Shown here piece after piece: positions 33,688 to 51,084 of a DNA stretch of 64,000 nt. Both the position numbers and the translations under genes were made by a program. The notes beneath the pieces are model-generated. The model ran no database searches and had not been told where the DNA came from. It worked only from the letters and a program-made list of their open reading frames with translations. The stretch is from Xenophilus sp. E41 (GTDB lineage Bacteria > Pseudomonadota > Gammaproteobacteria > Burkholderiales > Burkholderiaceae_C), in the NCBI RefSeq assembly GCF_003671765.1, contig NZ_QPIB01000008.1:248001-312000 (forward strand), written 5' to 3'. Each line of letters begins with the position of its first letter. Positions within the stretch are counted from its first letter, which is position 1.

Positions 33688-33719
33688 GGGAGCACTCCTG
33701 GTTGGAGGAAGGGAATGGA

Positions 33720-34199
33720 CTAGACGAACAACTGGATGGCTGGCAAGGGCTGGTCCGCATCGAGCAGGTTGACGCGCTTCTCGCGGATCAGCCATCCGAG
33801 CGGCCCGCCCGGCACCAGCGTGTGCACGCAATGGCCGGCAAGCAGCACCTGCTGCGGGCCGCGGACCTCGATGTAGACGAAGGCGGTGCGCAGGCGGACG
33901 ATCCCGCCGTCGCCCGGCAACGCCGCCAGACGGCGCGCGGTCTGCAACACATGCTGGCAGCGGCTGGCCGGATGCTGCGAATGGGCGCGCGGGCTGTGCA
34001 GGCGCTTGACGCGCAGCTCGAGCAGCATGCGGTCTTCCAGTGCGAGCGCGTTGTGGCTGTCGGCATCGGCCTGCGCCGCGCCCTGGAGCGGGATCCAGTA
34101 GCGACCGTCCGGGGCGAACAGGGCAAGCCAGTCGTCCCAGCGGCGGTCGTCGATCAGCTCGGCCTCGTGGAGGACGAAGTCTTCGGCGGAAAGCGTCAT
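33720..34199 (-). CDS. aromatic-ring-hydroxylating dioxygenase beta subunit (second pair)
   Basis: 159 aa. A small subunit with the cystatin/NTF2-like fold of Rieske dioxygenases: the start VLHEAELIDDRRWDDWLALF, then DGRYWIPLQ and SRCQHVLQTARRL. It is a structural partner of the alpha subunit encoded just upstream (ATGA overlap at 34196-34199). It is paralogous to the beta subunit at 43855-44352, with the same length and motif order. Confidence 0.92.
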   Translation of the reverse strand: MTLSAEDFVLHEAELIDDRRWDDWLALFAPDGRYWIPLQGAAQADADSHNALALEDRMLLELRVKRLHSPRAHSQHPASRCQHVLQTARRLAALPGDGGIVRLRTAFVYIEVRGPQQVLLAGHCVHTLVPGGPLGWLIREKRVNLLDADQPLPAIQLFV

Positions 34200-35512
34200 G
34201 CGCCCTCTCCCATCCACTTCGCCCAGGCCCGGAACTGGTTGCGCATCAGGCGCTCGTCGGTGCCGCTGGTCTCTTCCACCGCGTCGTCGCGCTCGCCGGG
34301 CACGAAGCCGCGGTGCAGGCTGACCCATTCGTTGCCCTCGCCGCGCAGCCCCTGCTGCATGCTCTCGAACAGGTGCACGTCGTCATGGGCCACCACGGAC
34401 ATGGGCGAGAAGACCAGGCGGTTGTAGCCCATCGAACGCTGCAGCAGCAGCTCGGGCGCGCCCTCGGCACGAAAGCTCCAGGCTTCCACCAACGTGCGGT
34501 CGGCGGCCAGCGGCCGGATCACGCGGATGGCCTGCGGCGAGCCCTTCACCGACAGGCTGGGGAAGAGCACCGCGTTCTGCGGCGAACGTTGCAGCACCTC
34601 GTTGGCACGCTCTTCGCCCAGGGCGCTGCGCAGCCCGTCCTCGTAGTCCTGCAACTGCGCGTAGCTCGAATGGATGCTGAAGCGCGTGCCCAGCACGCTG
34701 TGGCCGTTGGGGTACACGCGACCGCCCATGCGGTCGAAGAAGTCGTAGCCCGAGCCGAAGGGCAGGATCTGCTCCATCGCCATGGGCTTCGGGGCATCGG
34801 CGGGCTGGCCCTTCCACAGTGCATCGGCCGCCTGCGTGGCCGACTCGTGGGTGGACATGGGATGCACCGTGTCGTTGATGTTCTCCAGGTACATCTTCCA
34901 GTTGCAGTGGATGACGTTGCGCAGCACGCCGCCCGCCACGGTGAGCCGGCCCTCGGGGGAGCGATCCACCATGTTGTCGATCACGTGCAGGACGTCGCCG
35001 AAGTACTCGTCGAAGCCCGGGCCGTCTTTCGCCAGCCGCACGAACACGAAGTCGCGATACACGGCCACGCCGGCCACCGGTTGCAGCCCCTGGCCCGACT
35101 CGCATTGCGCCAGGCCCGTGCCTTCGTAGCCGGCCTTCAGCGGCAGGGCGAGCGGCGCGCCGTCCAGTTTGTAGGTCCAGGCGTGGTAGGGGCAGCGGAA
35201 GAAGCGGCCGGTGTTGCCATGCGCCTCGGTCACCAGTTGCGCGCCCTTGTGCGCGCAGCGGTTGTAGAAGACGCCCACGCCGCCGTCGGCCTGCCGCACC
35301 ATCAGCAGCGGGCGGCCGGCAATCTCCCGCGTGCAGTAATCGCCCGCGGCGGGCACCTCGCTCGCATGGCCGGCGAACTGCCAGGTGCGGGCGAAGAAGC
35401 GGTCCTCTTCCAGCTCGAAGAGTTCCTGGCTCAGGTACAGGTCGCGGTGCACCCGCTGTTCCTGCACCAGCGCCTGGAGGGCGGCCGGGTCGTTGCGAAA
35501 GCGCGTGGTCAT
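34196..35512 (-). CDS. Rieske non-heme-iron dioxygenase alpha subunit (second pair)
   Basis: 438 aa. The Rieske [2Fe-2S] ligands are C86, H88, C107 and H110 (RCAHKG and RCPYHAW). The mononuclear-iron motif E210-x3-D214-x2-H217-x4-H222 fits the classic oxygenase pattern. It resembles anthranilate/benzoate-type and IadD-type oxygenases, and by eye is about 60% identical to the alpha subunit at 44367-45680. It is lodged between two substrate-binding-protein genes, away from the reductase gene, so it must share that reductase or use another. Candidate substrates are a downstream product such as anthranilate, or a different auxin. Confidence 0.92.
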   Translation of the reverse strand: MTTRFRNDPAALQALVQEQRVHRDLYLSQELFELEEDRFFARTWQFAGHASEVPAAGDYCTREIAGRPLLMVRQADGGVGVFYNRCAHKGAQLVTEAHGNTGRFFRCPYHAWTYKLDGAPLALPLKAGYEGTGLAQCESGQGLQPVAGVAVYRDFVFVRLAKDGPGFDEYFGDVLHVIDNMVDRSPEGRLTVAGGVLRNVIHCNWKMYLENINDTVHPMSTHESATQAADALWKGQPADAPKPMAMEQILPFGSGYDFFDRMGGRVYPNGHSVLGTRFSIHSSYAQLQDYEDGLRSALGEERANEVLQRSPQNAVLFPSLSVKGSPQAIRVIRPLAADRTLVEAWSFRAEGAPELLLQRSMGYNRLVFSPMSVVAHDDVHLFESMQQGLRGEGNEWVSLHRGFVPGERDDAVEETSGTDERLMRNQFRAWAKWMGEGA

Positions 35513-35549
35513 GGCGTGGGGCCGTGCAGCGGGTCGGGCGCGTGGGCGT

Positions 35550-36695
35550 TCAGGGCACCAGCTTCCACTGACCCTTGTCCATGCGCACGATCACCACCGC
35601 GCGCTTGTCCGAGCCGTAGCGGCTGTCGGGCGTGAAGTTGTAGATTCCATGCGTGCCCACCAGCTCGCGCGTCGCGACGATGGCATCCTTGAGCGACTGG
35701 CGGTAGGCCTGGGTGCCAGGCTCGCCCTTGGCGCGCGCTGCGGCATTGGCGAGCAGCAGGTAGGCGTCGTAGGTGTACGACGAGAAGGCATCGACCGGCG
35801 CTGCGCCGTTGGCCTTCTGGTAGGCGGCCCGGAAGTCCATCGACACCTTGCGGATCGGGTTGTCGGCCGGCAGTTGCTCGGCCACCAGCACCGGACCGCT
35901 GGGCACTTCCAGGCCCTCGATGGCCTTGCCGCCCACGCGCACGAAATCGGCGTTGATCAAGCCGTGCGTGCCGTAGATGCGGCCCTTGTAGTTGCGCTCG
36001 GCCAGCGCCAGGTAGGGCAGCGCGCCCGGCGTGCCGGAGTTGCCGGCGAACACCGCATCGGGACGCTGGGCCACGATCTTGAGCACCTGCCCAGCCACCG
36101 AGCTGTCGGTGCGCGCATAGCGCTCGTTGGCCACCACCTTGATGCCGGCCGCGTCGGCGCTCTTGACCAGCGAGTCGTAGGCCAGGTCGCCCAGCGCATC
36201 GGAAAAGCCGATGAAGGCCACCGTCTTCACGCCCGCGGCCTTCATCTTGTCCACCACGGCCGCGACCATCAGCTCGAAGGGTTGCGACACCGACACCGTC
36301 CAGCCGTTCTCGGCGCCGGGCAAGGAGACCGGCGTGGGCGAGATCAGCGGCACGTTCATTTCGCGCGCCACCGCGGCGATGGCCATGGCGCCCGGGACAC
36401 CCGAGGTGCCGATGAGCACGTCCACCTTGTCTTCCGTCACAAGCTTGCGGGCATTGCGGCCGGCCGTCGTCGGGTCCGACGCATCGTCCAGCACGATCAG
36501 CTCGACCTTGCGACCGGCAACGGTGGGCATCTGCGCGTGGGCGGCGCGGATGCCTTTCTCGTAGGGGATGCCCAGCGCCGACACCGGGCCGGAGAGCGAG
36601 CTGATGACGCCCACCTTGAGGTCGGCGGCCAAGGCACCGACCGCAAAGGCCGAGGCGGCCAGCAGGGCGAGGGGACGAAGCAGCAGAGAGGCCAT
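35550..36695 (-). CDS. periplasmic substrate-binding protein (copy 2)
   Basis: 381 aa. Signal peptide about 1-22 (LLLRPLALLAASAFAVGALA), then a Peripla_BP_6 domain (DLKVGVISSLSGPVSALGIP, DDASDPTTAGRNARKLV, VAFIGFSDALGDLAYDSLVK). It shares with copy 3 a run of more than 20 identical residues including NPIRKVSMDFRAAYQKANG, so the two are recent duplicates or have undergone gene conversion. It precedes the second dioxygenase pair by 37 bases. Confidence 0.92.
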   Translation of the reverse strand: MASLLLRPLALLAASAFAVGALAADLKVGVISSLSGPVSALGIPYEKGIRAAHAQMPTVAGRKVELIVLDDASDPTTAGRNARKLVTEDKVDVLIGTSGVPGAMAIAAVAREMNVPLISPTPVSLPGAENGWTVSVSQPFELMVAAVVDKMKAAGVKTVAFIGFSDALGDLAYDSLVKSADAAGIKVVANERYARTDSSVAGQVLKIVAQRPDAVFAGNSGTPGALPYLALAERNYKGRIYGTHGLINADFVRVGGKAIEGLEVPSGPVLVAEQLPADNPIRKVSMDFRAAYQKANGAAPVDAFSSYTYDAYLLLANAAARAKGEPGTQAYRQSLKDAIVATRELVGTHGIYNFTPDSRYGSDKRAVVIVRMDKGQWKLVP

Positions 36696-36813
36696 CGGCA
36701 AAAACTCCGGAAGAAGGAAATGAAAAGGAAGACCGGGACCTGGGAGCGCGGCACTCAGGCCATCACGGCGAGGTACGCGCGCTGCCGGCATGCAGTGCAG
36801 TGCGCTGTGTGCC

Positions 36814-37983
36814 TCAGGGCACGAGCTTCCACTGGCCCTTCTCGAGCCTGACCACCACGCGCGAGCGTTCGTCCGAGCCGTAGCGGTCGTTGGGCTTGAA
36901 GTTGTAGACGCTGTGCGTGCCCGCCAGCTCCTTCGTGCTGGTGATGGCGTCGCGCAGGACGACGCGGAACTGCGGCGTGCCCGGCTCGGCCTTCGCCGAG
37001 GCGCGCTTGGCCGCATCCAGGAAGATCAGCCAGGCATCGAAGCTGTAGGCGGAGAAGGCATCGGTGGGCGCGGCGCCGTTGGCCTTCTGGTAGGCGGCGC
37101 GGAAGTCCATCGAGACCTTGCGGATCGGGTTGTCGGCCGGCAGCTGCTCGGCCACGATCACGGGGCCGGTGGGTGCCAGCAGGCCCTCGACCGCCGCGCC
37201 GCCCACGCGCACGAAGTCGGGGTTGATCAGCGCATGCATGCCGTAGATCTGGCCCTTGTAGCCGCGCTCGGCCAGCGCCAGGTAGGGCAGCGCGCCGGGC
37301 GTGCCCGAGGTTCCGGTGAGCACCGCGTCCGGCTTCAGCGCCACGATCTTCAGCACCTGGCCCGTCACCGACGCGTCGGCGCGCGCATAGCGCTCGTTGG
37401 ATACCACCTTGATCCCGGCCGGCTCGGCGCTCTTCTGCAGAGCGTCGTACACCAGGTCACCCCAGGCATCGGAAAAGCCGATGTAGCCCACCGTCTTCAC
37501 GCCGGATTTCTTCATCCGGTCGACCACCGCGCTGACCATCAGCGGCGCCGGCTGGGGCAGCGTGACCATCCATGCGCCCTCCTCGCCCGGCAGGTTGGCG
37601 TTGGCGATGGAGATCAGCGGCGTCCTGGTCTCGCGTGCCACGGCGGCGATGGCCAGCGCCCCGGGCGATCCGGCCGTGCCGATGATGACGTCGACCTTGT
37701 CCTCGTCGATCAGCTTGCGCGCGTTGCGTGCGGCCGTGCTCGGGTCCGACGCATCGTCGAGCTGGATCACCTGCACCTTCTTGCCGTCGATGTCGCCCTT
37801 GAAGGCCTGCGCTGCCGCCATGCCCTTCTGATAGGGAATGCCCAGCGACGAGACGGGCCCGGACAGGGAGGTGATGAAGCCGACTTTGTAGTCGGCCGCG
37901 AATGCGGCCGGCGCCGCAGCGCCCAGCAGCGTGGCACAGGCCAGGGCAGCGAGGCTGCGCAGGGGACGTCGAGATTTCATCAT
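36814..37983 (-). CDS. periplasmic substrate-binding protein (copy 3)
   Basis: 389 aa. Signal peptide about 1-29 (SLAALACATLLGAAAPAAFA) and the same fold as copies 1 and 2 (DYKVGFITSLSGPVSSLGIP, DDASDPSTAARNARKLI). ATG 37983 is preferred over the adjacent ATG 37980 because GGAG stands six bases upstream. The 194 bases before it are AT-rich and hold the palindrome TTTAGTCCTAAA, so a regulated promoter for the transport segment probably starts here. Confidence 0.92.
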   Translation of the reverse strand: MMKSRRPLRSLAALACATLLGAAAPAAFAADYKVGFITSLSGPVSSLGIPYQKGMAAAQAFKGDIDGKKVQVIQLDDASDPSTAARNARKLIDEDKVDVIIGTAGSPGALAIAAVARETRTPLISIANANLPGEEGAWMVTLPQPAPLMVSAVVDRMKKSGVKTVGYIGFSDAWGDLVYDALQKSAEPAGIKVVSNERYARADASVTGQVLKIVALKPDAVLTGTSGTPGALPYLALAERGYKGQIYGMHALINPDFVRVGGAAVEGLLAPTGPVIVAEQLPADNPIRKVSMDFRAAYQKANGAAPTDAFSAYSFDAWLIFLDAAKRASAKAEPGTPQFRVVLRDAITSTKELAGTHSVYNFKPNDRYGSDERSRVVVRLEKGQWKLVP

Positions 37984-38082
37984 GGCGAACTCCATCTGAT
38001 GGGTGAAAACGCACGGAACAGCGCCGACGCCGATGTGCCGCGGTCCGCGGCCCCCTCGCCTCAGCACATGACTTATCAATTA

Positions 38083-38177: not shown

Positions 38178-38915
38178 TCACAGCGCGAGACTGCCCACGC
38201 TGGTGCCTCCGCACACGTACAGCACCTGCCCCGTCACGAAACTGTTGGCCGGCTCGACGAAGAAACGCACGGCCCGTGCCACATCGGCGGACTCGCCGAG
38301 GCGCTTGACCGGCACGCTGGCCGCGAGCGCCTTCTCCTTGTCGCTGCCGGCCTCGACCACGTCGTAGAACATGTCGGTGCGGATGGGGCCGGGCGCGACG
38401 ACATTGACGGTGATGCCCTCGCCGCCGAGCTCCAGCGCCCAGGTGCGGGCCATGCCCAGCATGCCGGCCTTGGTCGCCGAATAGCTGGTGCGCGTGGCCA
38501 GGCCGAGCGCGGCGCGCGACGACAGCAGCACCACGCGCCCGAAGCCCGCGGCACGCATCGCCGGCAACGCGGCCTGCACCAGCTGCACGGCACAGCCCAG
38601 GTGCAGTTCCACCAGTGCATCCAGGTCCGTCAGCTGTACCTGCGGCAGCAGCGCGGCGCGGATCACGCCCGCGTTGTGCACGACCGTGGTGACCTGCCAG
38701 CGCGACGCCACGTACGCCGCGGCCTGCGCCGTGGCGGCGCGGTCGCTCAGGTCCACCTCGACGCTGTGCAGACGCGCATGCGCGATGTCGGCGGTCCGTC
38801 GGGCCAGGCTGACCACCTCCCAGCCACCGTCCAGCAGGTCCTGGCAGATCGCCTTGCCGATGCCGGCGCTGCCGCCGGTGACGACGGCAACGCCGCGGTC
38901 GTGCACTGCATTCAT
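38178..38915 (-). CDS. SDR-family dehydrogenase
   Basis: 245 aa. An intact short-chain dehydrogenase: TGGSAGIG, DLSDR, HNAG, LLSSRAALG with the catalytic Ser, YSATK with Tyr and Lys, and PGPIRTDMF. It overlaps the cyclase-family gene by 4 bases (ATGA), so it is co-translated with the catabolic enzymes. Its role may be an oxidation or reduction at the dioxindole or side-chain level; the exact step cannot be read from sequence. Confidence 0.9.
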   Translation of the reverse strand: MNAVHDRGVAVVTGGSAGIGKAICQDLLDGGWEVVSLARRTADIAHARLHSVEVDLSDRAATAQAAAYVASRWQVTTVVHNAGVIRAALLPQVQLTDLDALVELHLGCAVQLVQAALPAMRAAGFGRVVLLSSRAALGLATRTSYSATKAGMLGMARTWALELGGEGITVNVVAPGPIRTDMFYDVVEAGSDKEKALAASVPVKRLGESADVARAVRFFVEPANSFVTGQVLYVCGGTSVGSLAL

Positions 38916-39733
38916 GCCGAACCCACCAGCGCGAGCACGCGCAACGGGCTGCCGCTGCCCTTCTCGATCTTCAGCGGCGGGCAGATCAGCACCGCACCCG
39001 CGGGCGGCAACAGGTCCAGGTTGCACAGGCACTGCAGGCCGTAGCGTCCTGCTCCGTGCATGTAGTAGTGGCAGGGGTACGGCGGGCGCAGGTGGTAGCC
39101 CTGGCCGGCGTCGGTGCCGATGGCTTCGGAGCCGAAGCCCAGCACGCCGCGTTCTTCCACCAGGAAGCGCACCGCGGCGGTGCTGGGGCCGGGCGTGTGC
39201 TGGCCGGTCTCGTCGAAGTTCTGGTACTCGGCGGGGTCGGTGCGCTTGGACCAGTCGGTGCGCATCAGCACCCACGCGCCGGCGGGGATGCGGCCGTGCG
39301 CGGCCTCCCACTCGGCGATGTCCTCCAGCGTCAGCAGGTAGTCCGGGTCGTCCTTGACCTGGGGCGAGCAGTCGATCACGCAGGCCGGTGCCACGAAGTT
39401 CTGCACGGGGATGGTGTCCACCGCGTTGTTGGGCAGGTCGCGGCCGGAGATCCAGTGGATGGGCGCATCGAAGTGCGTGCCCGTGTGCTCGCCGCAGGAG
39501 AAGTTGTTCCAGTACCAGCCCGGGCCGCGCTCGTCGTAGCGCGACACCTCCTCGATGCGGAAGGGCCAGCACTGGCCCATCTCGGGCGGCAGCGCGATCT
39601 GCGGGAACTCGGGCGTCAGCGTCTGCGTGAGGTCGACCACGCGGATCTGGCCACTGGCCAGGGCGCCCACCAGGCCGGCCAGGGCGTCGAGGCCGGTAGA
39701 TGCGGCAGCGGGGGTCAGGGTTGCGTTGCTCAT
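38912..39733 (-). CDS. cyclase-family metal hydrolase, isatin-hydrolase-like
   Basis: 273 aa. A member of the cyclase/kynurenine-formamidase superfamily (PF04199 type). The metal site reads H83-TGT-H87-F-D89-AP-I-H93, matching the HxGTHxDxPxH motif of Mn-dependent isatin hydrolases. These open isatin to isatinate. In an indole-3-acetate pathway that runs through isatin, this is the expected ring-opening enzyme. AAGGAG precedes ATG 39733. Alternatives are kynurenine formamidase or another amide-ring hydrolase, but no kynurenine genes are nearby. Confidence 0.85.
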   Translation of the reverse strand: MSNATLTPAAASTGLDALAGLVGALASGQIRVVDLTQTLTPEFPQIALPPEMGQCWPFRIEEVSRYDERGPGWYWNNFSCGEHTGTHFDAPIHWISGRDLPNNAVDTIPVQNFVAPACVIDCSPQVKDDPDYLLTLEDIAEWEAAHGRIPAGAWVLMRTDWSKRTDPAEYQNFDETGQHTPGPSTAAVRFLVEERGVLGFGSEAIGTDAGQGYHLRPPYPCHYYMHGAGRYGLQCLCNLDLLPPAGAVLICPPLKIEKGSGSPLRVLALVGSA

Positions 39734-39755: not shown

Positions 39756-41009
39756 TCATCCACCATTCGTCGCCAGCTCGCGCTCGAGCACCTTGGGGTT
39801 GTCGCGCCAGCGCTGCAGCCATTCCTGCGCCACGTCGCCGGGGTAGACGTCCTCCACGCCATCGCGCAGCGCCTTGACGATGGCATTGGCCAGCGCGTCG
39901 GGGCCCAGCTTCGGCGGCGGCATGTGCTGGTTCCATTCGTCGTCGATCGGGCCGGGGAACACATTGATGACGCGGATGCCGGCCGGCCGCATCTCGGCGC
40001 GCAGGCACTGGGCCAGCGAATAGGCCGCGGCCTTGCTGGCGCTGAAGGTGCCGTGCGGCGGAAAGTTGGACAGCGCGTAGATCGACAGCAGGTTGACCCA
40101 GGCCGTGGCCCCGGTCGCGCCGTCGGCCGAGCGGCCCTTGAGCGCGGGGCCGAACTCCTGCGCCAGGCGCAGCAGGCCGAAGTAGTTGATGTCCATCTCC
40201 AGCTTGGCCACGTCGGTGCCGCGGCGCGCGCCGATGCCGAAGGTGCGGTGCACCTCGGCGTTGTTGATCACGATGTCCACCTTGCCGCCGATCTCGCCGG
40301 CCAGTTCGGTGACGGCGCGGCCGTTCGTCAGGTCCAGCGGCACCAGCGTCACCTGCGGCAGCGCGCTGATGTCCTCCAGGCCGCCGAGATGCTTCCAGGG
40401 CTCGGCATGGCCCACCCACACGATGTCGGCGCCAGCCTTGACGAGGGCGCGCACCAGGGCCTGGCCGGCGGGCGTCTTGCCGTCCGTCACCAGTACCTTG
40501 CGGAACTTGGGGTCGCTGGTCATCTCGCGCAGCATCGGGTCGTCGGCCATGTGTGCACTTCCTTCAAAGGGGAATCCGATCAGTACCGCCTGTCCGGCGC
40601 GGTCGAGCCGGGCACCCACGCGCACGCGCTGCGGTGCCTCGCCCACCTCGCCGTGCAGGTGGACCATGAGGGAGGGGCCGCTGTCCAGCCGGACCATGCC
40701 CAGGCGCCAGGGCAGGCGCTCGCGGAAGAACAGGTCGTTGCTGTGGTGCAGCGTGGTGGCGCTGAGCAACTCGCCCTCGCCGGTCTGGGGGCGCCAGCGC
40801 AGCTCGGTCGACAGGCACTTCCTGCAGGCGCCGCGCGGCGGGTATTGCACGGTGCCGCATTCCTCGCACACCTGGAGCTCGAAGCGGCCCTCGGCCGCGG
40901 CGGCGGTGATGCCCAGGGCCTCCCGCCCGCGCGCCCAGGGCGGCAGATTCATCTGGCGCGTGCGCAGGACGGGGTTCTTGCGCTTGGGGCGCATGAGGGG
41001 CATGGTCAT
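39756..41009 (-). CDS. DUF35 zinc-ribbon/OB-fold protein fused to a degenerate SDR domain
   Basis: 417 aa. Residues about 20-150 form a DUF35 module: a zinc ribbon with C48, C51, C62 and C65 (CEECG...CRKC) and an OB-fold. Residues about 168-417 have the SDR fold but lack its catalytic marks: the TGxxxGxG cofactor loop reads TDGKTPAG, and the Tyr of YxxxK is Phe322 (FSASK, Lys326), with Ser309 retained. DUF35 proteins partner thiolase-like enzymes, and the next gene upstream encodes such a partner. I infer that the DUF35 half forms a retro-aldolase with it and that the SDR half is a scaffold or has lost redox function. Confidence 0.85.
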   Translation of the reverse strand: MTMPLMRPKRKNPVLRTRQMNLPPWARGREALGITAAAAEGRFELQVCEECGTVQYPPRGACRKCLSTELRWRPQTGEGELLSATTLHHSNDLFFRERLPWRLGMVRLDSGPSLMVHLHGEVGEAPQRVRVGARLDRAGQAVLIGFPFEGSAHMADDPMLREMTSDPKFRKVLVTDGKTPAGQALVRALVKAGADIVWVGHAEPWKHLGGLEDISALPQVTLVPLDLTNGRAVTELAGEIGGKVDIVINNAEVHRTFGIGARRGTDVAKLEMDINYFGLLRLAQEFGPALKGRSADGATGATAWVNLLSIYALSNFPPHGTFSASKAAAYSLAQCLRAEMRPAGIRVINVFPGPIDDEWNQHMPPPKLGPDALANAIVKALRDGVEDVYPGDVAQEWLQRWRDNPKVLERELATNGG

Positions 41010-41040: not shown

Positions 41041-42213
41041 TCATTCCTGCCTCCCGAGGATCACGGCGCCGGTGCACAGGCAGCGGTCGTAGGTGACCAT
41101 GCCGAAGCCGGCCACCAGTCCGAGCTTCGCGTCGGGCACCGTCCGCGGCCCGGCCTGGCCGGTGAGCTGGCGCAGCGTCTCGGTCATGCCCAGGAAGCCG
41201 CCGGCGGCGCCCGCCTGGCCGGCCGAGAGCTGGCCGCCACTGGTGTTGTTGGGAAAGCTGCCGTCGTGCGTCAACGTATGCGACTGCACGAAGGCCGCGC
41301 CCTCGCCCTTCTCGCAGAAGCCCAGGTCCTCGAAATGCATCATCACGATGACCGGGTAGTCGTCGTAGGTCTGGATGAAGTCGATGTCCTTGGGCTGCAC
41401 GCCGGCCTGCGCATACAGGTCGTCGCGGTCGCGGGCCCAGCCGCCGCGCACCATGATCGGATCGTCGGCAAAGGCGTTGTGGCGCTCGATGCCGCCGCGC
41501 AGCGTGGCATAGGGCAGGCCGAGGTCGCGGGCCCGCTCGGACGTCATCACCAGGAAGGCTTCGGCGCCGGCGCAGGGCATGACGCAGTCGAACAGGTGCA
41601 GCGGGTCGGAGATGGGCCGCGCCGCCATGTATTCATCGAGCGTCAGCGCCTTCTTGAACATGGCGTTGGGATTGCCCAGCGCGTTCTGCCGCTGCGCCAC
41701 GCAGATGCGGCCGAAGTCCTCGCGGCGGGCGCCGAACTGGCGCATGTAGTGCGCCGTGATCATCGCGAAGATGGAATTCGGCCCGCCCGAGCCGTAGGGA
41801 TAGGTCGCATCGCGGGCGAAATTGCTGAAGGCGCCCAGCGTCTGCCGGAAGGAGTCGACATGGTTGGTGTCGGCTGCCACGCAGGCCACCACCTCGGCAT
41901 CGCCGCACTGCACCGCGCGCGCGGCGCGGCGCAGGCACATCACGCCGGAGGCGCCGCCGGTGGGAACATGGTCCAGCCAGCGCGGCGACAGGCCCAGGTG
42001 CTGGGTCACGCCCACGGCCGTGTCGGGCGCCAGCGAGAAGCTCGACAGGCACAGGCCGTCGATGTCGTCCTTGGCGATGCCGCTGGCCTCGACCAGCGCG
42101 CGCACCGCTCTGCCGAGGAACCAGTGCGCCCCCTCGGTGGAGTAGCGCTGGTAGGGCACGGTGACGGGCACGGCCACGGCCGCGCCCTCGTAGTTGCTGC
42201 GGCGCCGTGCCAT
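41041..42213 (-). CDS. thiolase-fold protein lacking the thiolase Cys and His; probable aldolase
   Basis: 390 aa. The fold is that of SCP2-thiolase/lipid-transfer (Ltp) proteins, as seen in GVTQHLGLSPRWLDHVPTGG and PNNTSGGQLSAGQAGAAGG. The nucleophilic Cys of thiolases (CxSG) is Gly87 here (GASG), and the His of GHPxG is Gln (GQAG). A classical thiolase reaction is therefore unlikely. Ltp2-type relatives with DUF35 partners cleave tertiary beta-hydroxyacyl-CoAs by retro-aldol reaction in steroid breakdown. The matching reaction here would be 3-hydroxy-2-oxindole-3-acetyl-CoA to isatin plus acetyl-CoA. It overlaps the ligase stop by one base. Confidence 0.85.
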   Translation of the reverse strand: MARRRSNYEGAAVAVPVTVPYQRYSTEGAHWFLGRAVRALVEASGIAKDDIDGLCLSSFSLAPDTAVGVTQHLGLSPRWLDHVPTGGASGVMCLRRAARAVQCGDAEVVACVAADTNHVDSFRQTLGAFSNFARDATYPYGSGGPNSIFAMITAHYMRQFGARREDFGRICVAQRQNALGNPNAMFKKALTLDEYMAARPISDPLHLFDCVMPCAGAEAFLVMTSERARDLGLPYATLRGGIERHNAFADDPIMVRGGWARDRDDLYAQAGVQPKDIDFIQTYDDYPVIVMMHFEDLGFCEKGEGAAFVQSHTLTHDGSFPNNTSGGQLSAGQAGAAGGFLGMTETLRQLTGQAGPRTVPDAKLGLVAGFGMVTYDRCLCTGAVILGRQE

Positions 42214-43841
42214 CAGTCCTGCCTCTTCTTCATCGCGCGGGTGTCGAAGCAAGCGCCGGTGCCGGGCAGCGCCTGCGCCATCTGCCGCAGCTCGCCGCGC
42301 TGGATCTTCTGCGAGGCCGTGAGCGGCAGCGCCTCGACAAAAGCCACGTGACCGGGCGCCTTGTAGTAGGCCAGCTGGGCGAGCGCGTGGCGCACGATGT
42401 CCGCGGCCAGCGCCTCGTCGGGCATGGCCGCCGCGTCGGGCTCGAGGACAATGCAGGCCAGCACCTCGTCGCCGCGTACCGCGTCGGGCGTGGCGGCCAC
42501 GGCCGACACCTTCACGGCGGCGTGCTGATTGAGCACGCTTTCCACCTCCACCGCCGAGATGTTCTCGCCGCTGCGGCGGATGACGTTCTTCTTGCGGTCC
42601 ACGAAGAAGAGGCTGCCCGCCTCGTCGCGCCGCACCATGTCGCCGGTGTGGAACCAGCCGCCCTGCCAGGCTTCGCCGGTGGCGGCCGGGTCCTTCAGGT
42701 AGCCGCCGAAGAAGTGGCGCCGCGGGTCGTCGCCGCTGGACCGCACCAGCAGCTCGCCGGGCGTGCCGGCGGGCACGTCCTGGCCCCCGTCGTCGACCAG
42801 CCGCACCTCGACGAAGTCCTCGGGTCGGCCGAAGCAGCTGGTGCCCACGTGCCGCGGCTCGTGGTTGGCCATGATGCAGGCGGCGGCGCCGGTCTCGGTC
42901 ATGGCCCACGCCTCCACCAGCGGGAAGCCGAAGCGGGCCTCGAAGGGCGCGTGGTTCTTGCGGTCCACGCCGGCGCCGAAGGCCCAGCGGATCGCATGGT
43001 CGCGGTCGGCCGGCGTCTCGGCCGCGGCCAGCAGCATGGCGGGCATCACGCCCAGGTAATGGACGATGGTGGCGCCGCTGTCGCGCGCACTCTGCAGCCA
43101 GCTGCGGGGGTGGAATCGATCCAGCTGCACCAGGCAGCCGCCGGCCACCAGCACCACCATGGTCGAGAAGGCCATCGCATTGACGTGGTTCAGCGGCAGC
43201 GGCGTCATCAGCCGCTCCTGGTCGCGGCGGAAGGCGCACACGCCGTCGAGGCCCGCATACCACTCGCCCGCGCGCAGGAAGTAGGCATTGCTCAGCATAC
43301 AGCCCTTGGGCCGGCCGGTGGTGCCCGAGGTGTAGAGCAGCGCGCATTCCGTGCCCAGGCCGACGACCTCGTGGGCGCGGGGTGCCGGCTCGGTGGGCGC
43401 CGGCACGTCGGCGGCGTCGGCGGCCATGGTGTGCAGGCGCCGGCCGGCCTGGGCCGCAGCGGCCTCCAGGTCGCGGGCGCGCTGCGGCAGCGTGACGGCC
43501 AGGCCGATCTCGCTGTGGCCGATCAGGTAGGCCAGCTCGGCCGAGCGCATCTCGGCGTTGATGGGCACCACGCTCACGCCCAGCGCATTGAGCGCGAACC
43601 AGTGATACAGAAAGGCGGGCCGGTTCTCCAGCAGCAGGCCGACGCGGTGGCCATGGCCCCAGCCGGCCTGCGCATAGGCCAGGCGCAGGCGTTCGACCTC
43701 GGCCGCGGCCGCGGCCCAGGGCGTGGCGCCGGCCGGAATGCCATAGACCTCCGCCGTGGCCGGCTCGGTGTAGAGGAAGTCCGCCTGCGGCGTGCGCCCG
43801 GCGCTGGCCGTGAAGGCGTCGTGGATCGTGCGGTACGTCAT
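42213..43841 (-). CDS. AMP-binding acyl-CoA ligase of the indole-acetate pathway
   Basis: 542 aa. An ANL ligase with phosphate loop [13 protein letters not shown], adenylate motif VEAWAMTETGAA, hinge DRKKNVIRRSGENISAVEVE and the C-terminal catalytic Lys region TASQKIQRGEL. ATG 43841 (MTYRTIHDAF) begins 14 bases upstream of the beta-subunit stop, so the two genes overlap slightly. By position between the oxygenase and the thiolase-like aldolase it most likely makes the CoA thioester of an oxidised indole-acetate. Confidence 0.9.
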   Translation of the reverse strand: MTYRTIHDAFTASAGRTPQADFLYTEPATAEVYGIPAGATPWAAAAAEVERLRLAYAQAGWGHGHRVGLLLENRPAFLYHWFALNALGVSVVPINAEMRSAELAYLIGHSEIGLAVTLPQRARDLEAAAAQAGRRLHTMAADAADVPAPTEPAPRAHEVVGLGTECALLYTSGTTGRPKGCMLSNAYFLRAGEWYAGLDGVCAFRRDQERLMTPLPLNHVNAMAFSTMVVLVAGGCLVQLDRFHPRSWLQSARDSGATIVHYLGVMPAMLLAAAETPADRDHAIRWAFGAGVDRKNHAPFEARFGFPLVEAWAMTETGAAACIMANHEPRHVGTSCFGRPEDFVEVRLVDDGGQDVPAGTPGELLVRSSGDDPRRHFFGGYLKDPAATGEAWQGGWFHTGDMVRRDEAGSLFFVDRKKNVIRRSGENISAVEVESVLNQHAAVKVSAVAATPDAVRGDEVLACIVLEPDAAAMPDEALAADIVRHALAQLAYYKAPGHVAFVEALPLTASQKIQRGELRQMAQALPGTGACFDTRAMKKRQD

Positions 43842-43854
43842 GCCGATGCCTGCC

Positions 43855-44352
43855 TCACAGAAAGAGCTGCACCGCCGGCAGCGCGGCATCGCTGTTGATC
43901 AGGTCCACGCGCTTGAGCACCATGCGCAGGGCGCCATCCTGCACGCACAGGTGGTGCCAGGCCACGCCGGTGAGGAAGAGCATCTCGTCCGCCTGCGCCT
44001 CGCTGTAGTGGAAGGGCGTGCGCAGCACGAAGCGGTTGGCCGCCTCGTCGCGCGACTCCAGCCCGGGCAGCTGCAGCACGTGCTGGCAGCGGCTGGGTGG
44101 CTGCTGCGAGAAGGCGCGCGGGCTCTTGAAGCGCTCGATGCGCAGGTCGCGCAGCAGCTTGTCCTCGTACAGGTGCGAGGTGTGGTTCAGGCCGTCGGGC
44201 TGGCCGGGTGTGAGCGGCACCCAGTAGATGGCGTCGTCCGTGAAGAGCGCATTCCATTCGTCGAAGCGCTTCTCGTCGAGCAGCCGGGCCTCGTGCAGGA
44301 CGAAGTCGAGCAGTTGCTCGCGGGTGACGGTGGCGGGGGTGAGTTCGGCCAT
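43855..44352 (-). CDS. iadE: Rieske dioxygenase beta subunit (IadE-like)
   Basis: 165 aa. The small oxygenase subunit, with LLDFVLHEARLLDEKRFDEW, DDAIYWVPL and SRCQHVLQLPGLESR. It pairs with the alpha subunit just upstream. ATG 44352 is used; GTG 44370 would overlap the alpha stop (GTGA) and add six residues. In Variovorax, iadD and iadE are reported as necessary and sufficient for indole-3-acetate degradation. This pair is assigned to them because it directly follows the reductase gene near the MarR end. That naming is an inference. Confidence 0.88.
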   Translation of the reverse strand: MAELTPATVTREQLLDFVLHEARLLDEKRFDEWNALFTDDAIYWVPLTPGQPDGLNHTSHLYEDKLLRDLRIERFKSPRAFSQQPPSRCQHVLQLPGLESRDEAANRFVLRTPFHYSEAQADEMLFLTGVAWHHLCVQDGALRMVLKRVDLINSDAALPAVQLFL

Positions 44353-44366
44353 GGTCGTGCGCTCGC

Positions 44367-45680
44367 TCACATCGTCAGGGTCATGTGCTTGAGCCACGAC
44401 CGGTACTGGTTGCGCATGGGCAGCTCGTTGGTGCCGTTGCTGGTCTGCTCGCGCTCGCGGCCCTCGTGCGCGTCGTAATTGCGGTGCAGGCTGACCCAGT
44501 CGTTGCCGCTGGCATGCAGGCCGGCCTGGATGCCGCGGTAGGCCTGCAGGTCGTCGTGGCCCACCACCGAGAAGGGCGAGTTGATGAGCCGGCTGTAGGT
44601 GGTGGTGCGCTGCAGCAGCTCCTCGGGTGCGCCCTTCAGGCGAAAGGTCCAGCTCTCGACCAGGGTGCGGTCCACCGCGATGGGGCGTGCCACGCGGATG
44701 GCCTGGATGGCGCCCTTGATCGTGAGGTTGGGGTAGTACACGGTGTTGTGCCGCGCCATGCCCAGGATCTGCGCCGTGCGCTCCTCGCCGTAGCGGGCCT
44801 TCATGGCCTCCTCGTAGCCGGGGATGCCCGAGTACTTGCTGTGGATGCTGAAGTGCACGCCCGAAAAGCTGTGGCCGTTGTCGTACACGCGCACGCCCAT
44901 GCCGTCGAAGAACTGGTAGTCGGACATGAAGGGCACGAACTGCTCGATGGCCATGGGCTTGGGCGCATCGTCCGGCTGCCCGGCCCACATCGACTTGGCG
45001 GTGCCCGCAGAGGACTCGTGCGCCACCATGGGATGCATGGTGTCGTTGAGGTTCTCGACGAACATCTTCCAGTTGCACTGGTGCATGAAGCGCAGGCACC
45101 CGCCCGCCACCTCCAGCTCACCCTCGGGCGAGCGGTCGGCCATGTTGTCGATGGAAGAGAGCGAGTCGCCGAAGTACTCCTCGAAGTCCTGCCCCACGTC
45201 GTTGAGCTTGACGAAGATGAAGCCGCGGTAGAGCCGCACATGCCGCACCGGCACCAGCCCCCTGGCCGCGTCGCAGTCCTTCAGGCCGGTGCCCTCGTAG
45301 CCGTTCTTGAGCGGGATCGCGAGCGGCGCGCCGTCGGTCCTGAAGGTCCAGGCGTGGTAGGGGCAGCGGAAGAACTTGCCCGTGTTGCCGCAGGCGCCGT
45401 TGACCACCCGCGAGCCCTTGTGGGCGCAGCGGTTCATCAGCACCTTGACCGCGCCGTCGGTGTGGCGCACCACGATCAGCGGCCGGCCCGCGATGTCCAC
45501 GGTGATGTAGTCGCCCGGCTTGGGCACCTGGCTGTCGTGGCCGACGTAGTTCCAGGTGTTGGCGAAGAAATGCTCCTGCTCCAGCGCGAACAGCTCCGGG
45601 TCGATGTAGAGGTCGCGGTGCACCTGCTGCGCTTGCACCAGGGCGCGGATGGCGTCGGGGTTGTCTCGGTAGCGTGTCAT
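44367..45680 (-). CDS. iadD: Rieske non-heme-iron dioxygenase alpha subunit (IadD-like)
   Basis: 437 aa. Rieske ligands C85, H87, C106 and H109 (RCAHKG, RCPYHAW) and catalytic iron motif E209-x3-D213-x2-H216-x4-H221 are all intact. The enzyme inserts oxygen into an aromatic ring with electrons from a reductase; the reductase gene lies 30 bases upstream. Gene order (two IOR-type subunits, reductase, alpha, beta, CoA ligase) agrees with the iad-like auxin-degradation operon as I recall it. Anthranilate- or benzoate-type dioxygenases are the nearest alternatives. Confidence 0.88.
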   Translation of the reverse strand: MTRYRDNPDAIRALVQAQQVHRDLYIDPELFALEQEHFFANTWNYVGHDSQVPKPGDYITVDIAGRPLIVVRHTDGAVKVLMNRCAHKGSRVVNGACGNTGKFFRCPYHAWTFRTDGAPLAIPLKNGYEGTGLKDCDAARGLVPVRHVRLYRGFIFVKLNDVGQDFEEYFGDSLSSIDNMADRSPEGELEVAGGCLRFMHQCNWKMFVENLNDTMHPMVAHESSAGTAKSMWAGQPDDAPKPMAIEQFVPFMSDYQFFDGMGVRVYDNGHSFSGVHFSIHSKYSGIPGYEEAMKARYGEERTAQILGMARHNTVYYPNLTIKGAIQAIRVARPIAVDRTLVESWTFRLKGAPEELLQRTTTYSRLINSPFSVVGHDDLQAYRGIQAGLHASGNDWVSLHRNYDAHEGREREQTSNGTNELPMRNQYRSWLKHMTLTM

Positions 45681-45710: not shown

Positions 45711-46715
45711 CTACAGGTCGAGCACCAGGCGCGGGCCCTTGGCGCGGGAGATGCAGATTTGCATCACCTGGCCGCCGTCCTTCTCGGCCTGCGACAGCAC
45801 ATAGTCGCGGTGGTCCACCTGGCCCTCGATCACCGGCACGGCGCACACGCCGCATTCGCCGCGCTTGCAGTCGTAGAGCGGGTCGCAGCCGTGTTCGATC
45901 AGGCAGTCCAGCACCGTCTGGTCGGCCGGCACGGTGAAGCGCTGGCCCGATTGCGCGAGCTCGACCTCGAAGGCTTGGTCACCCGCTTCCACGGCCGCGG
46001 CGCTGAACAGTTCGAAGTGCACGCGGCCCGGCGCCCAGCCGCGCGCCTGCGTGGCGGCCAGCACGGCGTCGAGCAGCGGCTTGGGTCCGCAGACGTAGAG
46101 CGGCTCGCCCTGCGCCATGCCGTCCAGCAGCGTGCCGATGTCGAAGCCCGCGCCCCCGGCCTCGTCGTCCGCATGCAGGCGCAAACCGGTGCCCAGCAGC
46201 GCCTGCAGCTCGTCGGCGAAGGCCAGCAGCGCGCGGCTGCGGCCCGCGTAATGCAGGTCCACCGGCCGGCCCTGGGCCCGGCAGCGCGCGGCCATGCTCG
46301 CCAGCGGCGTGATGCCGATGCCACCGGCCAGAAACACGGCGCGGGCCGCGCCGTCGTCCAGCGGAAAGTCGTTGCGCGGCGGCTGCACGGTGACGCGGTC
46401 GCCAGGCTTCAGGCCCTGGTGCATGAAGCGCGAGCCGCCGCGGCCGCCCTCCTCCAGTCGGACGGCGATGGTGTAGGCCCCGGGCGCGAAGCCGGGTGTG
46501 CCGGCCACGCCTTCCAGGTCGATCAGCGAATAGTGGCGCCAGTCGGCCTGGCCGTCCGGCAACTGCACCTGCACTTGGATGTGCGCACCGGGCGCCCAGC
46601 CGGGCAGCGCGATGCCCTCGGCATGCTCCAGGCGCAACAGGCGGATCAGCGGGTTGAGCGCGCGGGTCTCGGCCACACGCATTGGGAGGGTGGCGATGGC
46701 GGGCGGTGCGGTCAT
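45711..46715 (-). CDS. Rieske oxygenase reductase, PDR/VanB type
   Basis: 334 aa. A single-chain electron carrier: flavin domain with RHYSLID (R60), NAD domain with AGGIGITPLAS (130-140) and YVCGPKPLLDAV, and a C-terminal plant-type [2Fe-2S] ferredoxin with C283, C288, C291 and C321. This is the phthalate-dioxygenase-reductase layout. It is the only reductase in the island and so probably serves both oxygenase pairs. It lies 13 bases after the IOR beta-type gene. Confidence 0.92.
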   Translation of the reverse strand: MTAPPAIATLPMRVAETRALNPLIRLLRLEHAEGIALPGWAPGAHIQVQVQLPDGQADWRHYSLIDLEGVAGTPGFAPGAYTIAVRLEEGGRGGSRFMHQGLKPGDRVTVQPPRNDFPLDDGAARAVFLAGGIGITPLASMAARCRAQGRPVDLHYAGRSRALLAFADELQALLGTGLRLHADDEAGGAGFDIGTLLDGMAQGEPLYVCGPKPLLDAVLAATQARGWAPGRVHFELFSAAAVEAGDQAFEVELAQSGQRFTVPADQTVLDCLIEHGCDPLYDCKRGECGVCAVPVIEGQVDHRDYVLSQAEKDGGQVMQICISRAKGPRLVLDL

Positions 46716-46728
46716 GGTTCGCCTTCCG

Positions 46729-48264
46729 TCAGGCGGGCACGGCCAGGGCGCCGGCCGTGGGGGTGGCCGAATGCTTCGCCAGCGCAGCCTTGAGTGCATG
46801 GCCGTGCTCGTCGGCCAGCGCCGCCTCGCGCCAGGCGCGCAGGGTGGCCGGCGCCAGCGTGGGGCTGGCCTGCCGCCATGCGGCGATCACGGCGTCGTAG
46901 TTGCGCACGCCGCGCTCGTGGGTGTCGCTGTAGCCCTTCACCAGCTTCTGGCAGCGTGCGAGCTCCACCGCCAGCTCGGGCGAGGCCGATGCGGCGTCGC
47001 CCAGGCCCTGCAGCCATTGCTCGATGCGGCCGTTTTCTTCCGCGTAGCGGAGGGTGCTGCGGCGCCAGCGGCGGGCGAAGGCCACGGCCGAGAGCAGCAG
47101 GAAGCCGTGCACCGAGCTGGTCTGCACCACGCGGCCCTTCTTCGTCATGCCCTCCACCAGCCGGCGCGGCGCGCCCGAGCCCATGAGCCACCGGCCCAGG
47201 CCGCCAGGCAGCGTCTCGCAGATCTCGCGCAGTCCCGGGTGCATGTACTCGTTGATGGCGATGACCTGGTCGGCGTTGACGCCGGTTTCCTGCTTCACGC
47301 GGGCGAAGCGGCTGGAGCGGGTCTTGAGCTGCGCGACGCGCGCCGTGTCCTCGTAGCTCATCCACAGCGCCAGGTGTCGCGCGGTTTCGCAGGCCAGCGT
47401 GCGGGCCGCGTCGTCGGGCAGCTTGCAGACTTGGGCCATGCGGTCCAGATAGAGCGTGGCATAGGCCACGTCCTGGTAGTCGACCAGGCGGCGCAGGCCT
47501 TCGAGCATCAGGGTCTGTGCCTGAGCCGGGAACTCGCCGTAGAGGCGCGTGAGCAGCGCCTGGATGGCCGGGTCGGCCGACGTGGCGCGCGGCGCGGCAG
47601 TTGCGACCGGCTGGGCCTGCGCCGGCGCCTCGCCGGACTGCGCCCGCACGAATGCCGCGCCGAAGGCCTTCAGGCTGGGCTTGACGCCCACGCCGCCGCG
47701 CTCGATGGTGGCCTCGAACTGTTCGCGGCCGAAAGGCAGCACGCCGGTGCCGGCCAGCGCGCCGAAGAGCACGGCGCTGATCACGCTGCCGTTCTGCGCC
47801 GCGGCCTCGGCCATGTCGAAGCGCACGAAGCGCCGCGCCGCTTGGTCGGCATGGGCCAGCAGCTGCGCGCTGTCGACGCGGCCGTCGCCCATGGCGCTCT
47901 TCTCGGCGATGGAATAGACGCGATGCGTGGAGGCCACCAGCGTGGTGCGGTCGGGCGTGACCAGCCCGCGCTGGACGGCGCGGCCGGCTTCCATCAGCTC
48001 GGAGCACAGCACCACGTCGACGTCGCCCGGCAGCGGCATCAGTGCCAGAACAGGCTGACCGCCGTCGGCATGCGCCTGCGCCTCGGGGTACATCTCGACG
48101 TAGTAGATGGTGGCGCCGGTGCGTTGCGCCACGCCGGGCACCGACGTGGTCTGCGCGATCCAGCCATTGGCCTCGCCCAGGTCCACCAGCCAGTCGGCCA
48201 GCACGCCGCCGCCCTCGCCGCCCATGGCGAGGATGGCGATCTTGATGGGTTGCTGTTGCGTCAT
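46729..48264 (-). CDS. indolepyruvate-ferredoxin-oxidoreductase beta-type subunit with long C-terminal domain
   Basis: 511 aa. The N-terminal third (about 1-200) is the gamma-type 2-oxoacid-oxidoreductase domain: IAILAMGGEGGGVLADWLVD, then SVPGVAQRTGATIYYVEM. The C-terminal half (about 225-490) is a mostly helical domain of the DUF6537 type. It forms one enzyme with the gene just upstream. Expected reaction: CoA- and ferredoxin-dependent oxidative decarboxylation of an aryl 2-oxo acid. In an isatin route the natural candidate is isatinate (2-aminophenylglyoxylate). It should act in the cytosol. Confidence 0.88.
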   Translation of the reverse strand: MTQQQPIKIAILAMGGEGGGVLADWLVDLGEANGWIAQTTSVPGVAQRTGATIYYVEMYPEAQAHADGGQPVLALMPLPGDVDVVLCSELMEAGRAVQRGLVTPDRTTLVASTHRVYSIAEKSAMGDGRVDSAQLLAHADQAARRFVRFDMAEAAAQNGSVISAVLFGALAGTGVLPFGREQFEATIERGGVGVKPSLKAFGAAFVRAQSGEAPAQAQPVATAAPRATSADPAIQALLTRLYGEFPAQAQTLMLEGLRRLVDYQDVAYATLYLDRMAQVCKLPDDAARTLACETARHLALWMSYEDTARVAQLKTRSSRFARVKQETGVNADQVIAINEYMHPGLREICETLPGGLGRWLMGSGAPRRLVEGMTKKGRVVQTSSVHGFLLLSAVAFARRWRRSTLRYAEENGRIEQWLQGLGDAASASPELAVELARCQKLVKGYSDTHERGVRNYDAVIAAWRQASPTLAPATLRAWREAALADEHGHALKAALAKHSATPTAGALAVPA

Positions 48265-48283
48265 CTCGGGATCCCGTGTCGGC

Positions 48284-50455: not shown

Positions 50456-50514
50456 CGGTCTACGTGCTCCAGAGCCGCCGTGGGGGGCAGCGTCCATTGG
50501 GGATCGGCTGGATG

Positions 50515-50543
50515 ATTCTGTTTAGACCTAAATCTATTCACAA
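50515..50543 (-). promoter_or_regulatory. promoter of the leftward catabolic operon
   Basis: On the minus strand TTGTGA (50543-50538) and CAGAAT (50520-50515) are separated by exactly 17 bases and match sigma-70 elements at four of six positions each. The palindrome TTTAGGTCTAAA lies within the spacer, which is where a repressor would block RNA polymerase. The operon's first start codon is 60 bases downstream. Confidence 0.55.
50521..50532. promoter_or_regulatory. candidate MarR operator in the divergent control region
   Basis: The 12-base palindrome TTTAGACCTAAA lies between the divergent MarR gene and the operon's first gene. A copy differing at one base is at 38083-38094. The surrounding 50 bases are distinctly AT-rich. 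Confidence 0.7.
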
Positions 50544-50598
50544 TCATGTATTACCCTACCGAAGCAATCGCTGTGCCATCTGTACGATGGATCCCGCT

Positions 50599-51084
50599 AT
50601 GACCCTTCACGAGCCGAATTCGCGTCACTTCGTCGACGACTACCTGCCTGCCCTGCTCGCCCAGGCGAGCCAGCTCATCTCGGGCGAGTTCCACAAGGTG
50701 GCGCGCCAGCACGGCTTTTCCGTGTCCGAATGGCGCGTCATGGCCTCGCTGGCCGATGGCGAGCCGATCAGCATCACCGACCTCGCGCAGGTCACCGTCA
50801 CCAAGCAACCCACGGTGACGCGCTTGCTCGACCGCATGGAGGCCAAGGGGCAGGTCCAGCGGCTGCCCCATGACAGCGATCGACGCATCACGCTGGTGCG
50901 CATCACCCGCAAAGGTGCGAAGGCCGTCGAGCACCTGATCGCCCTGGCGCGCGAGCACGAACGCCGCGTGCTCGAACCCTTCGGCCTCGCCCGCGCCGAG
51001 GAGCTCAAGAGAACACTGAGACGATTGGTCGAACTGCATGCCGGGAGCGAAGGCCCCGGCGAGGATTCCGACGACGAAGACTAG
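50599..51084 (+). CDS. iadR: MarR-family regulator of the indole-acetate operon (IadR-like)
   Basis: 161 aa. Winged helix-turn-helix core (about 30-140): FSVSEWRVMASLADGEPISI, recognition helix VTVTKQPTVTRLLDRME, wing LPHDSDRRITLVRITRKG. The tail is acidic (EGPGEDSDDED). It diverges from the catabolic operon across a 140-base region that holds a palindromic operator, the standard layout for an autoregulated repressor released by the pathway substrate. ATG 50599 has a weak GGA upstream; ATG 50587 (four residues longer) is possible. The symbol is an inference from context and may not match published usage. Confidence 0.85.
   Translation: MTLHEPNSRHFVDDYLPALLAQASQLISGEFHKVARQHGFSVSEWRVMASLADGEPISITDLAQVTVTKQPTVTRLLDRMEAKGQVQRLPHDSDRRITLVRITRKGAKAVEHLIALAREHERRVLEPFGLARAEELKRTLRRLVELHAGSEGPGEDSDDED

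Follow-up and report, generated by a model that had tools for sequence, protein, structure and literature searches.

What reaction does a protein catalyze when it keeps the fold of a thiolase and has lost the residues with which a thiolase works? The question is raised by the gene at 41041-42213, on the minus strand of the window (the whole 64,000-nucleotide stretch of Xenophilus sp. E41 DNA analyzed here), whose product is IadG of a complete iad (auxin degradation) operon; a plus-strand frame over the same interval is also open, and was rejected as spurious. In plant microbiomes, root growth is influenced by bacterial auxin removal through the iad locus, a capacity that is already being engineered into root bacteria (PMC12633357). 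In that 2025 preprint IadG was needed for anthranilate formation, and was placed after IadF at the removal of the acetyl side chain, a placement inferred from annotation, with IadG assigned as an acetyl-CoA acetyltransferase/ketothiolase, IadH as an alcohol dehydrogenase, and dioxindole as the product of a reductive removal (PMC12633357). A central step of auxin breakdown is thereby given to a reaction for which IadG is not equipped. Sequence, conservation, fold, tree position, synteny and mass balance together indicate that IadG is very probably a retro-aldolase of the Sal/Ltp2 type which, with IadH, converts dioxindole-3-acetyl-CoA to isatin and acetyl-CoA. Four genes, all on the minus strand, carry the argument:

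41041..42213, minus strand: iadG, thiolase-fold protein of 390 amino acids, predicted dioxindole-3-acetyl-CoA retro-aldolase, with GGASG at residues 86-90, YDDY at 283-286 and GGQLSAGQ at 326-333.
39756..41009, minus strand: iadH, fusion of DUF35 (residues ~36-136) and a domain resembling short-chain dehydrogenases/reductases (SDR-like, ~171-364), predicted partner of IadG.
38912..39733, minus strand: iadI, isatin hydrolase, with the metal motif HTGTHFDAPIH.
42213..43889, minus strand: iadF, AMP-forming acyl-CoA ligase, predicted maker of dioxindole-3-acetyl-CoA; its start is possibly an ATG near 43841, and its stop shares one base with the start of iadG.

Conservation in IadG was scored over 81 sequences, the window protein plus 80 orthologs (the best 80 of 566 relatives). 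In a profile alignment with the solved thiolase 7yvy, Gly87 of the stretch PTGGASG (residues 84-90) stands where the thiolase has the nucleophilic Cys of CASG, Gln333 aligns with the His of GHP, and Tyr283 sits at the position of the HDxF His; each of the three is present in 81/81 sequences, as are Asp284, Asp285 and Tyr286 of the motif YDDY, and Gln328. A preliminary description of this DNA, made from the sequence alone, had pointed out the first two replacements and judged a normal thiolase reaction unlikely; both points hold, and the change at the HDxF His, absent from that description, tells in the same direction. Compared with EC 2.3.1.16/2.3.1.9, IadG has the fold, and neither the nucleophilic Cys nor the GHP His in any of the 81. 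When 398 genomes of the phylum were surveyed, with at most four candidates scored per genome, 104 of them had a match and seven further IadG orthologs were found, all of which keep Gly87, Tyr283, Asp285, Gln328 and Gln333, so that neither chance nor sequencing error accounts for these residues. Identity in that sample drops from 63% to 41% without intermediates, and IadG looks like a well-bounded family there. Among 24 other relatives both Gln equivalents occur in only five, and position 285 is occupied by Ala in 10, by Ser in 6, by Cys in 6 and by Asp in 2; what singles out IadG at the level of sequence is the combination of Tyr283, Asp285 and Gln328/Gln333, not the loss of the Cys.

Another Cys/His pair in the thiolase site, which the preliminary description had named as an observation that would overturn it, did not come to light. 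The C-terminal Cys378 and Cys380 (79/81 and 80/81) were considered as replacement nucleophiles and rejected, given that loci L085-L090 have Gly at 378 in 6/6 and Ala at 380 in 4/6, and the Cys and His residues that these six loci do keep (C111, C210, C214, H72, H245 and C300) lie in the sequence outside the thiolase catalytic motifs.

Among solved proteins, the aldolase Sal-Shy(DUF35) comes nearest to IadG in both sequence and fold, with Ltp2-ChsH2(DUF35) also close (structure alignments were built from 41/81 IadG and 37/79 IadH sequences), and in a tree of the window protein, nine of the first 80 loci, L084-L090 and the 24 relatives, IadG is placed beside the Sal group. For CtSal, the base is proposed to be Tyr302 and the acid Cys304, with Gln347 and Gln352 as proposed helpers; the variants Tyr302Phe and Cys304Ala/Ser/His lose all or nearly all activity, Arg216Ala is weakened, and Asn162 lies near the pantetheine (PMC12329534). 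By profile alignment these positions correspond in IadG to Tyr283, Asp285, Gln328 and Gln333, to Arg199 (R in 75 and K in 6 of 81) and to Asn146 (81/81), while the oxyanion-hole Gln161 of Sal corresponds to Pro145. The marks of a Sal-type enzyme, Gly at the Cys position, the catalytic Tyr and two Gln, are thus present throughout the 81 sequences. For Ltp2 Tyr344 there is no equivalent: the window protein reads SAGQAGAAGG at residues 330-339, and no Tyr is among the residues listed there for the 81 sequences. The earlier proposal of an Ltp2-type aldolase with a DUF35 partner stands as to the type of aldolase and the DUF35 gene next door, and has to be amended in that the closest kin is Sal, not Ltp2, and the second catalytic residue is unlike that of either. 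The comparison supports the view that IadG resembles Sal but has a new catalytic pair, and that it belongs to the DUF35-associated thiolase-fold aldolases as a variant, so classed because it is Sal-like yet does not have the Cys304 of Sal.

The partner protein is consistent with this assignment. IadH of the window matches PF01796 and PF12172 in Pfam, including the OB fold, ahead of its SDR-like domain, and the C4 zinc ribbon Cys48-x2-Cys51-x10-Cys62-x2-Cys65 is kept in 79/79 sequences (the window and 78 of the 80 loci; L020 and L077 end before iadH). Among the best 50 of 1980 Foldseek hits to the IadH model only SDR-type chains appear, the SDR-like domain filling the list, and the DUF35 half is therefore identified from Pfam and from weak phmmer matches to 6ok1_B (E 2e-6) and 9myr_B (E 6e-6). 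DUF35 binds Sal (PMC11321319), and by analogy IadG would form a complex with the DUF35 domain of IadH, and IadH would more likely serve IadG as a structural or substrate-binding partner. From its motifs IadH is unlikely to be a reductase, and that reading was rejected: TGxxxGxG is found in 0/79, YxxxK in 9/79 and the two together in 0/79, and at L085-L090 the Tyr or the Lys is missing in each of the six, in different ways. IadJ, by contrast, has both motifs in 71/71 (after an 85% length filter, which left 76 IadI, 71 IadJ and, with > 45% identity also required, 67 IadF sequences).

The enzyme that follows, and the chemistry of the substrate, bear on the product. IadI matches isatin hydrolase with E 2e-112 and kynurenine formamidase with 1e-4, keeps the metal motif HxG[T/A]HxDxPxH in 76/76, and is by these measures clearly a member of the isatin hydrolases. 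The beta carbon of dioxindole-3-acetyl-CoA carries a tertiary alcohol, where no beta-keto ester can form, and a thiolase therefore cannot act on this compound. The formula of dioxindole-3-acetate (C10H9NO4) is the exact sum of those of isatin (C8H5NO2) and acetic acid; dioxindole (C8H7NO2) as the product would require two hydrogens to be added and later removed again. Dioxindole-3-acetate is formed by IadJ (PMC12633357), and isatin has been reported in iad strains (PMC9613470, PMC8383072). Mass balance and the identity of IadI both speak for the predicted release of isatin and acetyl-CoA from dioxindole-3-acetyl-CoA, as the preliminary description had suggested.

In the sequence of events that we infer, IadF would make the CoA thioester of dioxindole-3-acetate, and Tyr283, with IadG bound to the DUF35 part of IadH, would take the proton of the tertiary 3-hydroxyl. 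The C3-CH2 bond would then break and isatin leave as the direct product, the acetyl-CoA enolate being re-protonated, most likely by Asp285 at the position of Sal Cys304, with the help of Gln328 and Gln333, as proposed for Gln347 and Gln352 of Sal. IadI would hydrolyze isatin to isatinate, and dioxindole, probably a side product, would arise from reduction of isatin by the cell.

Gene order ties these proteins together. An IadH homolog directly follows IadG in all 78 loci with room for it, IadI lies downstream in 73/75 loci and IadJ in 69/73, and an IadF of 45% identity or more is found upstream in 64/76; the ligase upstream, the DUF35 protein downstream and the isatin hydrolase next, read from the window alone in the preliminary description, are borne out by this synteny and by the operon map. 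IadG, IadH and IadI are also kept together at L115, L116 and L117, from the same phylum and outside the window's class. At 11 loci (L016, L026, L035, L044, L051, L055, L057, L068, L069, L071 and L072) the best upstream IadF match has 35-37% identity, and another CoA ligase has apparently taken its place there, with iadG and iadH retained. Two loci, L060 and L067, have iadG-iadH and no IadI or IadJ match within ~8 kb downstream.

The published scheme, in which ketothiolase IadG acts with IadF and the dehydrogenase IadH in a reductive removal of acetyl to give dioxindole, draws on the thiolase fold and on deletions: C10H9NO4 builds up on deletion of any one of iadF, iadG, iadH and iadI, and C8H7NO2 in the absence of iadI (PMC12633357). 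Isatin awaiting IadI, together with cellular reduction, explains this build-up of C8H7NO2 equally well; and with the nucleophilic Cys and both His gone in all 81 IadG sequences, a substrate closed to beta-keto ester formation, and an IadH that never has both SDR motifs where IadJ always does, we consider the scheme improbable. A second possibility is that IadI or some other amidase opens the oxindole ring before IadG acts, and that IadG cleaves the opened 3-hydroxy acyl-CoA to isatinate directly. This would still be a retro-aldol reaction, and isatinic acid has been found in Variovorax cultures (PMC9613470), yet the C8H7NO2 that accumulates without iadI (PMC12633357) has no side chain, and IadI therefore acts after cleavage; isatin hydrolase is, moreover, a far better match to IadI than formamidase is, which makes this order of events distinctly improbable. 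The loss of the thiolase residues might also be read as that of a non-catalytic scaffold, with the acyl-CoA cleaved by another enzyme; very little speaks for this, since the invariant YDDY, together with the two Gln and two CoA-contact residues, points to selection on an active site, anthranilate is lowered on deletion of iadG, and of the nine genes in the region the other eight are not individually credited with C-C cleavage in the available text of the preprint (PMC12633357). Barely credible, finally, is the older Bradyrhizobium japonicum route through 2-formaminobenzoylacetate and 2-aminobenzoylacetate, one of two proposals in PMC8383072, to which a true thiolase step to anthraniloyl-CoA was added in this analysis, given an IadG without thiolase residues, an IadI that is an isatin hydrolase, the detection of isatin and isatinic acid (PMC9613470, PMC8383072), and the exclusion of N-formylanthranilic acid for C8H7NO3 (PMC12633357).

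Against the retro-aldolase assignment itself, several observations have to be weighed. The fold ranking puts Sal first, with the thiolases 7yvy, 6esq and 7pxp only 1.8 to 2.6 Z behind, and fold therefore leaves the chemistry undecided. Across the branch, Gly is the general residue at the Cys position, being found in 23/24 non-IadG relatives, and for this reason Gly87 alone was rejected as a discriminator. The essential Cys304 of Sal (in YDCY) is not in IadG, which has Asp285 in 81/81 and in the seven further orthologs; Asp is not among the Cys304 variants in the available text of PMC12329534, so the part given to Asp285 is one that we infer. For IadH, the closest SDR among solved structures is 5u4s, determined with NADP, which has Leu in place of the Tyr; loss of the Tyr alone is therefore not decisive, and it is the loss of the glycine motif that counts.

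The remaining features of the operon region, with the regulator divergent from it, are:

38178..38915, minus strand: iadJ, SDR dehydrogenase, TGxxxGxG and YxxxK intact.
36814..38079, minus strand: iadK2-like solute-binding protein, start uncertain.
43855..44352, minus strand: iadE, Rieske oxygenase beta subunit, start set by the reading frame.
44367..45680, minus strand: iadD, Rieske oxygenase alpha subunit.
45711..46799, minus strand: iadC, reductase of the Rieske system, start uncertain.
46729-50497, minus strand: indolepyruvate-oxidoreductase-like pair, iadA/B, upstream in the iad operon region.
50464..51084, plus strand: MarR regulator, iadR-like (role from PMC9613470), divergent from the operon, start uncertain.

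The order C-D-E-F-G-H-I-J-K2, with iadA/B and the MarR regulator, identifies an iad locus (anthranilate-type auxin degradation), and is that of Variovorax (PMC12633357, PMC10374108, PMC9613470); the named locus nearest to the window IadG, among the best 80 of 566 relatives, is that of Pseudacidovorax intermedius (98%). We speculate that the iadA/B pair might oxidize isatinate, an aryl glyoxylate, to anthraniloyl-CoA. A second Rieske alpha/beta pair at 33720-35512 (minus strand) has 57% and 46% identity to IadD/IadE, and three paralogous solute-binding proteins, mutually 61-70% identical, lie within or beside the operon at 32518-38079 (minus strand). Elsewhere, YDDF sister proteins of IadG at L113:7872-9838 and L114:8637-11070 adjoin an enoyl-CoA hydratase, in L114 together with a DUF35 gene, and are perhaps hydratase-aldolase pairs for other acyl-CoAs.

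The preliminary description called the aldolase step apparently undescribed. The pathway and the place of iadG in it are already in print, and the mechanism is missing from the available text of the preprint, which names a ketothiolase and a reductive removal to dioxindole (PMC12633357). Within the open-licence literature, most subscription papers lying outside that search, we found no paper that names IadG an aldolase and no enzyme assay of IadG; as far as searched, the retro-aldol mechanism is apparently not in print. If true, it would make side-chain removal a redox-neutral step, explain the isatin hydrolase that follows, leave dioxindole as a side product, and bring a plant hormone, beside steroids, within the range of the thiolase-fold aldolases, through a new catalytic pair. 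We lean, by a modest degree, towards a still broader view: that IadG represents a third catalytic type among retro-aldolases of the thiolase fold, Tyr-Asp (YDD[YF]) beside Tyr-Cys in Sal and Tyr-Tyr in Ltp2, working on a DUF35 scaffold with a dead dehydrogenase domain and going straight to isatin and acetyl-CoA, that dioxindole arises by reduction, as a side product, and the iad scheme in print has to be corrected, and that the YDDF sisters are further members acting on other beta-hydroxyacyl-CoAs.

Set beside known systems, IadG of Variovorax paradoxus CL014 (PMC12633357) has the same operon position and order, the sequence comparison having used Variovorax relatives, not CL014, and IadI resembles isatin hydrolase A/B (PDB 5nnb, 4j0n; PMC6117287) in sequence match and metal motif. 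With the bile-acid side-chain aldolase Sal (CtSal)/Shy (PDB 9myr; PMC12329534), IadG has in common the thiolase fold, GGAS, the Tyr of YDxY, two Gln, an adjacent gene encoding DUF35 fused to a second domain and, as predicted, the release of acetyl-CoA from a beta-hydroxyacyl-CoA. The two differ in Cys304 versus Asp285 and Gln161 versus Pro145, in the zinc ribbon of the partner (C3H1 in that of Sal, C4 in IadH), in its second domain (a MaoC hydratase versus an SDR-like domain), and in the substrate, which yields an aldehyde with Sal and would, as a tertiary alcohol, yield a ketone with IadG. The cholesterol C3 side-chain aldolase Ltp2/ChsH2 (PDB 6ok1), which releases propionyl-CoA, matches IadG in fold, in the Tyr of YDxx, in a DUF35 partner with C4 zinc and, if the prediction holds, in a tertiary beta-hydroxyacyl-CoA substrate; IadG differs from it in having no Tyr344 equivalent (AGQAG region) and Asp for the His of YDHF, and its profile score is closer to Sal than to Ltp2.
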